64,000 bases of DNA, taken from Candidatus Hydrogenedentota bacterium. Its GTDB lineage: Bacteria; Hydrogenedentota; Hydrogenedentia; Hydrogenedentales; JAGMZX01. The notes beneath the pieces are model-generated. The model was not told the DNA's origin, searched no databases, and saw only the letters and a list, made by a program, of their open reading frames with translations. Positions 6,551-39,410 of this stretch are shown here, one piece after another. Numbering within the stretch: the stretch's first letter is position 1; each line of letters opens with the position of its first letter. The position numbers were made by a program, and so were the translations under genes. Location of the stretch: assembly GCA_029556545.1 (NCBI GenBank), contig JAKQEQ010000167.1, positions 56,889 to 120,888 of the forward strand. The letters run 5' to 3'.

Positions 6551-6879
6551 GGCCCGGGCCGGTTCGACGCGGCGAGGTGTACCTTGTGGGGCTCGGCCCG
6601 ACCCACGGCGGCGAGATTCGGAAAACGCGCCCCTGTGTCGTCGTCTCGCCCGATGAATTGAACGCCCATCTCCAGACCTTTATCGTTGCGCCGATGACGA
6701 CGGGAGAACATGCCTACCCCTTCCGTGTTCCCTGCCGGTTTCAGGGACAGTCGGGTTATGTCGTGCTCGATCAGATTCGGACCGTCGATCGCGAGCGCCT
6801 GGTGCGTCGCCTCGGGAGGATCGCACCCGCCACGCTGCAAAGCGCGCTCCTCACGCTCCAGGAGATGTTCGCGCCCTGA
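6544..6879 (+). CDS. mazF: MazF/PemK-family endoribonuclease toxin
   Basis: VRRGEVYLVGLGPTHGGEIRKTRPCVVVSPDELN...FIVAPMTT; ATG at 6544 preceded by AAGGAG; overlaps mazE by 7 bp. Confidence 0.9.
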   Translation: MVRPGPVRRGEVYLVGLGPTHGGEIRKTRPCVVVSPDELNAHLQTFIVAPMTTGEHAYPFRVPCRFQGQSGYVVLDQIRTVDRERLVRRLGRIAPATLQSALLTLQEMFAP

Positions 6880-6905
6880 AACGCGACCTGACGGCCGGGC
6901 TACGA

Positions 6906-8942
6906 TCAGGATTCGCGATTCGAGTTCCCGCGCGCTTCAAGAAAGGCAACACCCAACGCGAAGAACGCGATCGCGGGGAACAACACCCACCACGGGAGCC
7001 CGTGTTCGAGGAGGTGTTCCGGGTCCAGCGCCGACTGAAGCGCCTCAGGCAACACGGCATACTGGAGTAGCAGGGCCGCCCCGTTGAATACCGCGTGGAC
7101 GAGCATCGGGGCGAAAATCGACCCCGCGCGCAGCCCCACGTAAGTCAGGACCATACCCGTCAGCGCCGTGGGCGCGAAGCGGTAGAGGTTCAGGTGCAGC
7201 ACCCCGAAAAGCAGACCCACCGCGATAACGGTCGCCGCGTTGCCGAGTCTCGGCCGAAAGGCGGACAGCAGCGCGCCGCGAAACACGACTTCCTCGCACA
7301 CCGCGGGCGACACCACCACGATCAACACTACGAGCGGCGCGCCCGCCTGCCGCACGCCCTCCGCGAACATCCGCCCGAAAGTCTCGGCGAATTCGTCCGG
7401 CGCCGGGAAGACACGATGTACCAGCAAGGTCGCCTCGACAATCAGGGGCAGCCACGCCGCGCCGATCAGGATCGCGGCGCAGGCGTTGCGCCGCGAAAGC
7501 CGCTGCAGGTTCAGGGCGCCAGCCATGCGCACGCGCAAGAGACGCAGCACCACAAGCGTCGGCAGCAGGAGCAGAACCCACTCGGTAAGCAACAGCCCCG
7601 CGACAAAACTCCAAGCCTGCACCGTCGCACCGATATAGAACAGAAGCAGCATCAGGAAGCCGAACAGGCCCACGGCCGCGCCCGGCGTCAGGACGTCCGC
7701 GGGCGTCGCATCGCCCCGCCGCAGCGAGAGCGCCAGACCACGTTCTTCGGACAGGACGACGTCTTCGCGCTGGAAAAGCCATGCAGCCAACAGCAGGGCC
7801 AGCGCGGCGAATACCGCCGTGCTCACCAATACGAGAAACACCGCGTCCATGCCGGCCCTCCCCACAAGCATCTCCTTGAAAAGAAGCGCCACGTTCGCGA
7901 TAGGCACGAACACGTACGCCCCTTCAAGTTTCACGCCCGGCATGGCGGTAAGGAAGAGGGGAAACATGATGACGATGAAGAACGGCGTGACGAAGTTCTG
8001 CGCCTCCTTGAAATTGCGCGCCAATACGGCCAACGACATCATGACCGCGGCGAGAAACAGCGCAAGCGGCACCAGCAACACGAACATAAGCGGCAGTTGA
8101 AGCAGCGGGAAAGTGAGTTGTATGTCGAGGCGCGACTCAAGAATCGGGCGCAATTGTGAAAGGATCACGGCAAAGGTCATGCCCATGCTGGCGATGTTCA
8201 GAAATCCGGTGATCATCGCGAGGATGAAGACCGCGCAGAACTTGCCCGTCACAATTTCGAGTTTCGAGGTCGGCGTCGCCAGCAGCGTCTCGAAAGTGCC
8301 GCGCTCCTTTTCGCCTGCCGTCAGGTCGACGGCGGGATAGAACGCGCCGAGCGCAAGCGCCACGATAACAAAAAACGGCAGGATACCCCCGAGCACCGTC
8401 CCCGTGGTCCGGGTGGGCGAAGCCGTGTCCTTCCGCGCGACGTCCAGCGGCGTGATATACGCCTTGTCCACCCGCAGCGTCGCCAGGCGCTCCTCCTGGA
8501 TACGGTCGCCGACCTCGCGGAGTCCCTCGATGATCCGGTGCGCCGCGTCGCGCGAGGCGAATTCCGTCGCATCGTAGCGCACCTCGATCGGTGCGGTCCG
8601 CTGTTCCGCTAGCGCCGCGTTGAATTCCTCCGGCACCACGACCACGGCGTCGAGCCGACCCTCGGCAAGGTCCTCGTCCGGCGTCGCCGAATCGATCAGT
8701 CCCGCGCGCGGGATGCCGCCGACCCAATCGCGCACGGGCCCGGGCCGCGCTTCGACAACCGCGACGCGCGACACGGTGCTCTCGAGCTTTCGATGCTGCA
8801 CCAGCGCGAGTTGGAAGCCAACGAGCGTAAGCGCGGGATACAGCAGCAGCGGCACGCCAATCATCATGATGAGCGTGCGCTTATCGCGCAGGGTATCGAG
8901 CAGTTCCTTGCCGAGCAGGGTTCGAATCGTGCGCGGGTTCAT
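6906..8942 (-). CDS. ABC-2 type permease (NatB-like) fused to CPBP-family (Rce1-like) intramembrane protease domain
   Basis: N-terminal NatB-like ELLDTLRDKRTLIMMIGVPLLLYPAL; C-terminal CPBP motif SPAVCEEVVFRGALLSAF and HLNLYRF. ATG at 8942 overlaps the stop of the ATPase gene (ATGA). Confidence 0.88.
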   Translation of the reverse strand: MNPRTIRTLLGKELLDTLRDKRTLIMMIGVPLLLYPALTLVGFQLALVQHRKLESTVSRVAVVEARPGPVRDWVGGIPRAGLIDSATPDEDLAEGRLDAVVVVPEEFNAALAEQRTAPIEVRYDATEFASRDAAHRIIEGLREVGDRIQEERLATLRVDKAYITPLDVARKDTASPTRTTGTVLGGILPFFVIVALALGAFYPAVDLTAGEKERGTFETLLATPTSKLEIVTGKFCAVFILAMITGFLNIASMGMTFAVILSQLRPILESRLDIQLTFPLLQLPLMFVLLVPLALFLAAVMMSLAVLARNFKEAQNFVTPFFIVIMFPLFLTAMPGVKLEGAYVFVPIANVALLFKEMLVGRAGMDAVFLVLVSTAVFAALALLLAAWLFQREDVVLSEERGLALSLRRGDATPADVLTPGAAVGLFGFLMLLLFYIGATVQAWSFVAGLLLTEWVLLLLPTLVVLRLLRVRMAGALNLQRLSRRNACAAILIGAAWLPLIVEATLLVHRVFPAPDEFAETFGRMFAEGVRQAGAPLVVLIVVVSPAVCEEVVFRGALLSAFRPRLGNAATVIAVGLLFGVLHLNLYRFAPTALTGMVLTYVGLRAGSIFAPMLVHAVFNGAALLLQYAVLPEALQSALDPEHLLEHGLPWWVLFPAIAFFALGVAFLEARGNSNRES

Positions 8943-29274: not shown

Positions 29275-30657
29275 ATGACAAAGAAAGCGGCAAAGGCTAA
29301 GGCCCGGACAAAGAAAAAGGGTGTCGGCAAGCGCGCGGCCGCGCCAAAGAAGAAGACCGCGCCAAAGAAGAAGACCACGCCAAAGAAGAAGACTGTGCCA
29401 AAGAAGAAAGTGGCTGCGCCGCCAAAGGCAAAGAAGCGGGCCGCAACGAAAGAACCCACCGCCGCGAAGCCCAAACCTGCAAGCGTTGAGGTGAGGAAGC
29501 CGCGTCCCAAGGCGGAAGAAGCCAAGGTCGCGACGCCTGTCGCCGCAGCGCCCAAGCCGGCGCCGCCGCCTCCGGCAACGCTTCCCGCGCCGACACCCGC
29601 CCCCGCGCCGACAAAGGCAGTGCCGGCAAAGAAGGCGTATGCCCGGCCGTCGCCGCAGGCGCTCGCAAAAGTGAAACCGCTGTCCCGACGGTTCCTGTTC
29701 GAACTGTGCCAGGCGATCAAGGAAACCGTCGAGCCGGTGGCACGCGCCGTGAAGGGTCGCGAGGTGGTTGGCGCCGCCACGAGCGGCGATGCGACTTTCG
29801 AGATCGACCGGCTCGCCGAGAAGGCGCTGCTGACCTTTCTCCGGCGGGCCAAGGCCCCTGTCGCCTACTACTCGGAAGACTCGGGATACTCGACCTTCTC
29901 GAATGTGCAACCGAAGAACCTGCTTATCGTGGACCCCATCGACGGCACCCGAGCGGCCAAGAGCGGGTTCGAGGGCTGCACCATCAGCGTGGCGACGACG
30001 CGGGTTATCGAGCGGCCGCTCATGTCCGACGTGGATAACGCCTGCGTCATGGAGATCATTGGAGACCGGACCTTCTACGCGGAACGCGGCGCCGGCGCGC
30101 GCATCTTCGAGCAGGGACACGTGCGCAAGCCAAGACTCTCGCAGAACACCGACCTCGAATCGCTGTGCTGGTCCATGACCGTCCCCGCGCGGCCCGCCGA
30201 GCTGATCTTCCCCACAGCCGCGCGGCTCATCGACCTTTCCAGCCTGAAGGGCGGGTTCTTCTCGTGTAACAGCACGTCGTACAGCCTCACGCGCCTGCTC
30301 ACTAACCAGCTCGACGGCTGCGTCGATTTCGCGAGCCGCTTCATGCGGGACATCCCCGTAGCCGTCCGCGACTATTTCATCAACGCGGGCCGGGGCACGG
30401 TCCTCAGCATCTGTCCCTACGACATGGTGGCCGCGGTGCTCATCGCGCAGGAGGCCGGTTGCGCGCTCACCGACGCCTATGGCCGCGGTTTCGACGAGGT
30501 GCTGCTCCTCGACAGTTCGGAACACAATCATCAATCGCTCATCGCCGCGGCGAACAAGGAGTTGCACGAGAAACTGCTGCTCTTCTTTGACCGGCGCATC
30601 AGTCAGTTCGAACAGTTGCTGCTGCGTCGTCACGCCCGCAAGACCGAGCAAGGGTGA
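29275..30657 (+). CDS. Inositol-monophosphatase-fold protein with N-terminal histone H1-like Lys/Ala/Pro tail
   Basis: N-terminal APKKKTAPKKKTTPKKKTVPKKK...; catalytic domain with SEDSGYS, IVDPIDGTRAAKSGF, CPYDMVAAVLIAQEAGCALTD. Confidence 0.8.
   Translation: MTKKAAKAKARTKKKGVGKRAAAPKKKTAPKKKTTPKKKTVPKKKVAAPPKAKKRAATKEPTAAKPKPASVEVRKPRPKAEEAKVATPVAAAPKPAPPPPATLPAPTPAPAPTKAVPAKKAYARPSPQALAKVKPLSRRFLFELCQAIKETVEPVARAVKGREVVGAATSGDATFEIDRLAEKALLTFLRRAKAPVAYYSEDSGYSTFSNVQPKNLLIVDPIDGTRAAKSGFEGCTISVATTRVIERPLMSDVDNACVMEIIGDRTFYAERGAGARIFEQGHVRKPRLSQNTDLESLCWSMTVPARPAELIFPTAARLIDLSSLKGGFFSCNSTSYSLTRLLTNQLDGCVDFASRFMRDIPVAVRDYFINAGRGTVLSICPYDMVAAVLIAQEAGCALTDAYGRGFDEVLLLDSSEHNHQSLIAAANKELHEKLLLFFDRRISQFEQLLLRRHARKTEQG
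29341..29412 (+). repeat. 4 x 18-bp in-gene tandem repeat encoding (A/T/V)PKKK(T/V)
   Basis: gcgccaaagaagaagacc / gcgccaaagaagaagacc / acgccaaagaagaagact / gtgccaaagaagaaagtg. Confidence 0.9.
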
Positions 30658-32766: not shown

Positions 32767-32804
32767 CCTAAACCATAAACCCTAAACCCTAAACCCTAAA
32801 CCCC
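32767..32804 (-). repeat. TTTAGGG array in inverted orientation, right arm
   Basis: cctaaaccataaaccctaaaccctaaaccctaaacccc. Confidence 0.95.
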
Positions 32805-34619
32805 CTTTCCCTGATTAAGTCTCTCGTACAGCGTGCTGCGGCCGATGCCGAGAATGCGGGCAGCTTCGGGCACATTGCCGTTGCAGTAGCTCAAGACCCG
32901 CTGGATATGGCGCCGCTCGACTTCGGCAAGCGAGAGAGGCGCATCCTCGGGGAGGGAACGGCCCATGAGGTTCTTCACCGTGTGCATCTCGATCTGCTCG
33001 CCTTCGGTCAGCATGGCGGCGGCCTCAACAAGATGCTTGAGTTCGCGGACATTGCCCGGCCACGTGTGGCTCTTCAGAAACTCTATCGCTTCCGTGGTAA
33101 ACCCGCGCACGAAACCGCGCGTCTGGCTACTGGCGGCCTCGAGGAAGTATTGAGCCAACTCGGGTATGTCCGAGACCCGCTCCCGCAATGGCGGCACACG
33201 CACCTCCAAGACGCGAAGCCGGAAATGGAGATCGCTCCTGAAGGTGCCGGCCGCAACCGCCGCATCGAGGTCCCGGTTCGTGGCCGCAAGCACCCGCAGG
33301 TTGACCTGGACTTCCTCGCCCCCCCCCACGCGGCGGAACTGACCCATCTCAATGGCGCGGAGGATGCGCGCCTGATGGTTGAGGCTGAGATCCCCGATCT
33401 CGTCCAGCAGGATGGTGCCTCCCTTGCTCTGCTCCAACAGGCCGATCTTGCGCCCAACGGCCCCCGTAAATGCGCCCTCCTCGTGCCCGAACAGTTCGCT
33501 TTCAAACAGTTCGCTCGGGATGGCCGCGCAATTCACCGGAACGAACGGGCCCTGCGCCCGTTCCGACATCTCGTGGATGAGGTTGGCCACGAGTTCCTTC
33601 CCGGTGCCGGTCTCGCCAAGAATGAGCGTGGTCTGATCCGCCTTCGCGACGAGGCCGATGAGGAAAAGAAGTCGCTGCATCGCCTCGCTCGATCCGATCA
33701 TGCGCAGCCCCTTGTGTCGCTCCTCCCGCAGTTGCTCGACCTGTCGCTCGAGGTACCGACGACGCTCGATCGAACCGAAAAAGGGCGCCGCTCCGTGACA
33801 CAGCGCCACGAGGAACTCGACGTCCGACTCCTCGTAGTCGGCGGCGTCCGGCGCGCCTTCCACCGCTATCGCCCCTATGTCGTCTCGGCCGATAAAGATG
33901 GGCGCGATCATCCCGGACACCGCCTCCGCAACATTCGGGCGACGCGTCACAATGGCCCCACGACGCTCCTCGAGGCACTTGCGCATGCGCGTCTGGATAC
34001 TGCTCAGGGCACGGCGACCCGCGTCGTCCGGACGCGTCGCCAATTCAAGCCGGTTCTCATGAGAAAGGGCGATCCACACGGCGCTCGGCTTGAATCGATC
34101 GCAAATGGCGCTCTCGATCAGCCACAACAGCTCCGCCACGGACTCGACCGTGCTAAACCTCCGACTCGCCTGGAACAGCCGCGCAAGGTCGGCGACGTTG
34201 CGCGGCAACCCCTGGCCCATCGGACTCGGCGTGAAATCCGCCGGGTATACTGTCTTGCTGTCCAGGTTTTGCTTGGTCTTGCTCGTAGACGGACGGATGC
34301 CCGAACCGGAGGACTCGACGATGCGCCGCGTCAGAAGAAATGCCACGTTACCGACACACAGTTCGTCGCCGACGCTCAGTTGGCAACTCTCCACCGGGCG
34401 GCCGTTCACCAACGTACAGTTTCGGCTCCCCAAGTCCCGTACGAACACATCGTTCTGCGTCTGCCACAACTCGCAGTGACGCCGCGACACAAGGGGATCG
34501 GCCACGATCACGTCGCACTCCGTGTCTCGGCCGATTACGAGCCGCTCTTCCGGGATAAGCCACGAACTCCCCTTTCGCGGCCCGGACCGCACCGTGATGT
34601 GAAAGTATTCCCTCGACAC
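32796..34619 (-). CDS. Sigma54-dependent transcriptional activator: FHA-GAF-AAA+-HTH_8 (Fis)
   Basis: FHA: GRDTECDVIVADPLVSRRHCEL; AAA+: GETGTGKELVA, GAFTGA, GGTILLDEIGDL; HTH: VPEAARILGIGRSTLYERL. Called TTG start at 34778; GTG at 34619 (VSREYFHITV) preferred. Confidence 0.9.
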   Translation of the reverse strand: MSREYFHITVRSGPRKGSSWLIPEERLVIGRDTECDVIVADPLVSRRHCELWQTQNDVFVRDLGSRNCTLVNGRPVESCQLSVGDELCVGNVAFLLTRRIVESSGSGIRPSTSKTKQNLDSKTVYPADFTPSPMGQGLPRNVADLARLFQASRRFSTVESVAELLWLIESAICDRFKPSAVWIALSHENRLELATRPDDAGRRALSSIQTRMRKCLEERRGAIVTRRPNVAEAVSGMIAPIFIGRDDIGAIAVEGAPDAADYEESDVEFLVALCHGAAPFFGSIERRRYLERQVEQLREERHKGLRMIGSSEAMQRLLFLIGLVAKADQTTLILGETGTGKELVANLIHEMSERAQGPFVPVNCAAIPSELFESELFGHEEGAFTGAVGRKIGLLEQSKGGTILLDEIGDLSLNHQARILRAIEMGQFRRVGGGEEVQVNLRVLAATNRDLDAAVAAGTFRSDLHFRLRVLEVRVPPLRERVSDIPELAQYFLEAASSQTRGFVRGFTTEAIEFLKSHTWPGNVRELKHLVEAAAMLTEGEQIEMHTVKNLMGRSLPEDAPLSLAEVERRHIQRVLSYCNGNVPEAARILGIGRSTLYERLNQGKGV

Positions 34620-34694
34620 GCCGGCCAGTGTCCTCCCGGTACGCGGAAGCTGCGCCGCACGCCGGCGCGCGCCCGCGCGCCACGCCCGTCCCGT

Positions 34695-34724
34695 TTCTGG
34701 ACGCCCCCCGTCCAGAATCTGGAA
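34695..34724. promoter_or_regulatory. Candidate enhancer (UAS): dyad TTCTGGAC-N7-GTCCAGAA plus a third half-site
   Basis: Perfect 8-bp arms at 34695-34702 and 34710-34717; extra TCTGGAA at 34718-34724; about 100 bp upstream of the sigma54 promoter. Confidence 0.55.
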
Positions 34725-34818
34725 TCGACGCGTATTCCCGAACCGTACCACCGCGTATTCTATCGTAAAGAACCGCAAAAATAAAGGGCTTATGTTACTT
34801 GCGATTCAAGGCCAGAGA

Positions 34819-34834
34819 TGGCACGAAAATTGCT
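34819..34834 (+). promoter_or_regulatory. Sigma54 (RpoN) -24/-12 promoter
   Basis: TGGCACGAAAATTGCT matches TGGCACG-N4-TTGCW exactly; GG-GC spacing correct; upstream of the kinase start. Confidence 0.75.
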
Positions 34835-34922
34835 TCCCCCTTTTCGGGAGGGTTCGCGCCCGTCACCCGGACGCGACCCGAAGTCCGACCCGACGCGCGC
34901 GAACGGGTCCAACGCAACTGAA

Positions 34923-39410
<4,488 letters not shown>

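Follow-up and report, generated by a model that had tools for sequence, protein, structure and literature searches.

The window analysed here, a 64,000-nucleotide stretch of DNA from Candidatus Hydrogenedentota bacterium, carries two divergently oriented genes, one for a predicted sigma54 activator and the other for a protein kinase. The activator gene occupies 32796-34619 on the minus strand, as delimited by Pfam and alignment, with GTG 34619 as its probable start. Its product carries an FHA domain (PF00498, E = 4.8e-20), an AAA+ sigma54 interaction domain with a GAFTGA motif and a C-terminal HTH_8 domain; a Pfam match to GAF is weak and lies below the cut-off. When four activators of this type are aligned, the FHA residues G29, R30, S44, H47, N66, N71 and G72 (pattern GR/S..H/N) are invariant, and so are those of the GAFTGA motif. 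Elsewhere in the window, the plus-strand gene at 29275-30657 appears, from its translation examined by eye, to encode a long Lys/Ala-rich N-terminal tail followed by an inositol-monophosphatase-like domain.

The kinase gene, at 35010-39410 on the plus strand, encodes a Ser/Thr kinase domain and WD40 repeats recognised by Pfam, to which inspection by eye adds a PDZ-like C-terminus and, past the kinase domain, a membrane segment. The original prediction held that the ATG at 34818 lies inside the promoter and that the open reading frame should begin further downstream. Indeed, this ATG overlaps the -24 element. In a genome of the same genus (G001), the kinase frame is open only from the ATG that corresponds to 35010, and no earlier start is possible there; for this reason, the start of the window gene should be moved to ATG 35010. 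The predicted 5' leader would thus span 34845-35009 on the plus strand; a known or structured RNA was considered for this segment and rejected, with no Rfam match and no unusual folding (z = 0.27). Ser/Thr kinases with WD40 repeats, such as those of Planctomycetota, join the same two modules as the window gene, but the latter differs in its sigma54-type promoter and in the FHA activator gene next to it.

The -24/-12 element that would serve the kinase gene, TGGCACGAAAATTGCT, was located by motif scan at 34819-34834 on the plus strand and has a counterpart in G001. It had been described as consensus-perfect, and it shows no mismatch to TGGCACGN4TTGCW, contains the GG-N10-GC of sigma54 promoters and is the sole exact match within the window. 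The 6.1 Mb genome holds four exact matches; when one mismatch is allowed, there are 51 matches versus 82 for the reversed control in the same genome, and the -24/-12 motif alone is therefore weak evidence (these genome-wide scans are pattern searches only). The genome encodes a single rpoN (PF04552, E = 8.2e-64) and yields 22 matches to the sigma54 activator domain, approximately 18 of them strong. From the geometry of sigma54 promoters, transcription is predicted to start at 34845 on the plus strand, 12 nt past the -12 element.

Two tandem palindromes, 22 bp apart, precede the -24 element by approximately 108 bp; the original prediction placed the enhancer at about 100 bp. Comparison with other promoters defines the operator unit as the 15-bp palindrome GTCCAGAWTCTGGAC, with the 13-bp core TCCAGANTCTGGA. 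Neither copy is assigned a strand, and both align with copies in G001. Copy 1, GTCCCGTTTCTGGAC (34688-34702), has a degenerate left arm, and its core TCCCGTTTCTGGA at 34689-34701 carries two mismatches to TCCAGANTCTGGA; copy 2, GTCCAGAATCTGGAA (34710-34724), contains the exact core, TCCAGAATCTGGA, at 34711-34723. The original prediction had parsed this region differently, as a dyad TTCTGGAC-N7-GTCCAGAA (34695-34717, no strand) accompanied by a third half-site, TCTGGAA. This dyad is perfect and occurs exactly only once in the genome, but it consists of the right arm of copy 1 and the left arm of copy 2. Its next best match has two mismatches, and at three mismatches there is no excess over the control (27 versus 25). 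The 13-bp palindrome, by contrast, shows strong enrichment: exact TCCAGANTCTGGA sites number seven in this genome and five in G001, and sites with at most one mismatch 28 and 27, respectively, where the reversed control gives 4 and 9. The N7 dyad was thus rejected as the operator. The third half-site is present; it is not stray, being the right arm of operator copy 2. We know of no operator in the literature that matches this sequence.

Orthologues of both genes are again divergent in G001, where the activator is 70% and the kinase 64% identical to those of the window. The two palindromes, TCCAGATTCTGGA and TCCGAATTCTGGA, are 22 bp apart, as in the window, and the -24/-12 counterpart GGGTACGAGAATTGCT is found at L101:6672, with 109 bp from the start of the second core to the -24/-12 element as compared to 108 bp in the window. 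In this one same-genus genome, the GG and GC of the element are kept and two other consensus bases differ. The phylogenetic footprinting suggested as a check on the original prediction therefore finds both palindromes, their spacing and the -24/-12 element retained. This joint conservation, together with enrichment of the composite at other loci (see below), makes it extremely improbable that a motif of modest information content matches here by chance, in a GC-rich genome, as the number of one-mismatch -24/-12 matches, no higher than in the reversed control, might otherwise suggest.

Since the activator gene probably starts at GTG 34619, the operators also stand approximately 70-105 bp upstream of it, and they could chiefly autoregulate this gene, with the kinase promoter as a side effect. 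Autoregulation of this kind has parallels at L186, L187, L188 and L189, where a sigma54-like promoter is directed at the activator gene. The best minus-strand -24/-12 match at the window locus, however, scores 15.0 of 20.5, none being comparable to the plus-strand element; no sigma70-like promoter was found in 34500-35050, and it is the distance to the kinase promoter that is conserved. We thus regard autoregulation as the chief role of the palindromes as very unlikely.

Arrays of the same palindrome recur in both genomes. Palindromes 22-24 bp apart and 108-121 bp from a -24/-12-like element are found on contigs C179, C134 and C36 of the window's own genome (G000), with matching arrays in G001 at C47 (second site), C90 and C230. 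C100 of the own genome likewise carries a palindrome array and a sigma54-like promoter, and on C139 two palindromes 33 bp apart and then a CGGCACGATTCCTGCT element directly follow a further FHA activator gene. The arrays on C134 and G001 C90 precede a gene for a response regulator-PAS protein. Those on C36 and G001 C230 lie just after an FHA activator gene and precede a conserved small ORF of 54 amino acids, followed by a receiver-only protein. On C58, the array, whose second palindrome is weak, is upstream of a large protein that by eye looks exported. C179 has a clear array and TGGCGCGAAAATTGCT ahead of a transcript of unclear content, while on C100 and at the second G001 C47 site the array is upstream of a conserved region without a clear gene. 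Same-genus conservation and recurrence at other loci both back the three proposed elements, namely the sigma54 promoter, the operator for an activator and a kinase start further downstream.

Several further features were noted near sigma54-like promoters. The conserved region of approximately 430 bp that follows the operator-bearing sigma54-like promoter on C100 (L100, ~6680-7164, minus strand) has its counterpart at L101:13517-14000 on G001 C47. It lacks an obvious ORF and any Rfam match, is predicted to fold extensively and contains a GC-rich hairpin close to its end, and its marker motif is confined to this genus among the 40 genomes searched; we consider it a candidate non-coding RNA. Small ORFs with the pattern WWLV..GYRV...GIRYV..WRL follow sigma54-like promoters linked to FHA activators at L172 (promoter at 2710, ORF on the minus strand), L170 (5057) and L212 (2755), and the 54-amino-acid G000 copy has no Pfam match. 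Stand-alone small ORFs of the Fis-type HTH kind, one matching HTH_8 and the others recognised by eye, are located just after sigma54-like promoters at L102, L210 and L220, the last being followed by a Ser/Thr kinase gene. At L194, L195 and L196, sigma54-like promoters with TTCCCA palindromes, linked to FHA activators, face a gene that by eye resembles ATP sulfurylase, with leaders of approximately 400-540 nt. Lastly, on the minus strand of G000 C183:2267-2560 (L166) a palindrome accompanies TGGCACGAAACCTGCG, and an extra exact GTCCAGATTCTGGAC site lies downstream of that promoter.

We then considered FHA activators across the order, scanning 1.3 kb on either side of 44 such genes from the own genome and others of the order for composites of a -24/-12 element and tandem palindromes 21-24 or 32-34 bp apart. 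Composites scoring at least 38.5, the threshold, were found at 25 of the 44 loci versus 1 of 220 block-shuffled controls, and that of the window scored 43.5. The palindromes vary from locus to locus (GTCCAG, TTCCCA, TTCCGG, GTTCGG, TTCGCA and others). A partial Mantel analysis covered 20 non-redundant loci that had been picked by the palindrome-scoring scan itself, and it removed the effect of similarity elsewhere in the protein. Operator similarity correlated with that of the HTH segment's recognition half (r = 0.43, p = 0.0017), with some weak operator calls and a permutation that models phylogeny incompletely; for the first half of the segment in the same loci, r was 0.015 (p = 0.44). In a first version of this analysis the residue positions had been picked after viewing the data, and the repeat used whole segments. 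Residue 14 (LYX) is associated with positions 5-6 of the half-site, and for residue 10 the associated positions are 3-4. Taken for the class as a whole, this covariation of operator and helix supports the view that FHA activators bind the arrays next to their genes.

A second set, mostly of more distant FHA-type activators (33-46% identity), gave 2 loci out of 39 at the threshold, and a rule by which all FHA-type activators have adjacent arrays was therefore discarded. Of these two, L316 fits the code (Glu, GTCCGA) and L312 is unlike the motif; L085, just below the threshold, fits the code (Arg, TTCTCA). Among the genome-contig hits, the closest named ones of near full length were the MAG contigs L266 (uncultured bacterium) and L229 (candidate division BRC1), at 41-46% identity. 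A rule placing FHA activators beside kinases was equally set aside, the two genes being adjacent in few loci (the window, G001 C47, G001 C26 and G054).

Strong as the covariation is across paralogues, the activator of the window itself matches its array poorly at residue 14. This residue is Glu, and in the five other loci L186, L191, L210, L211 and L316 Glu is matched by G at half-site position 5; three half-sites of the window array have A there and the fourth has C. As a consequence, a paralogous FHA activator, encoded at C36:130917-132704 or C139:36109-37923, may mainly act on an otherwise real promoter and operators, with the kinase in a shared regulon or cascade. Both paralogues have GTCCAG arrays beside their own genes, their residue 14 (Ala at C36, Val at C139) fits GTCCAG better, and the same operator stands at sigma54-like promoters on C134, C179 and C100. 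The window array, however, falls within the neighbour's own upstream region, and the gene pair and array are conserved in G001, although proximity is weak evidence here because the other pairs were collected by proximity. We consider a main role for a paralogue unlikely; the FHA activator of the window is the more probable candidate for binding these palindromes.

The best reading of these data is that a sigma54 promoter serves the Ser/Thr kinase-WD40 gene and that an FHA-AAA+-HTH enhancer-binding protein activates it. We assign a probability of about 0.72 to the explanation as a whole, in which activation occurs through the tandem palindromes, with the divergent gene's product as the most likely activator. 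This protein would bind the two palindromes as dimers, centred near -150 and -128 and on one face of the DNA, since 22 bp corresponds to about two helical turns. Its AAA+ ring would reach sigma54 through DNA looping and open the promoter, with transcription of the kinase gene from ~34845. The FHA domain probably reads a phospho-threonine, and the kinase may therefore feed back on its own transcription; such a loop would be a natural hypothesis, although kinase genes seldom stand beside the activator gene in relatives. We also infer that the activity of the FHA activator could be under the control of Ser/Thr phosphorylation.

The window activator is reminiscent of NtrC-type enhancer-binding proteins, with which it shares an AAA+ domain with GAFTGA and a Fis-type HTH, as its promoter shares palindromic sites approximately 100-150 bp from the -24/-12 element; it differs in carrying an FHA domain and a weak GAF match where NtrC-type proteins have a receiver domain. 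FHA-domain enhancer-binding proteins of Myxococcus xanthus were reportedly described by Jelsbak et al. in 2005 (PNAS 102:3010), a study cited in PMC12288465, and the joining of an FHA domain to a sigma54 activator is common to these proteins and that of the window. Sigma54 regulons have been predicted by comparative genomics, for example in Desulfovibrio vulgaris, where palindromic operators were assigned to activators (PMC4641369). That study resembles ours in its cross-genome operator assignment and in local and autoregulated targets, and a term search of its text returned no match for FHA or recognition helix. A limited literature search revealed neither this operator family with recognition-helix covariation nor a described regulon of this kind in the lineage.

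We propose, tentatively and at somewhat less than even odds, that a clade of FHA-domain activators in this order reads tandem palindromes by a two-residue helix code and, in this genus, forms a phosphorylation-to-transcription loop with a membrane Ser/Thr kinase-WD40 protein. Starting from sequence alone, the analysis yields a rule that predicts DNA recognition by a set of FHA-domain sigma54 activators, along with candidate target promoters, so that a connection of Hanks-type kinase signalling with sigma54 transcription can be tested in this lineage.
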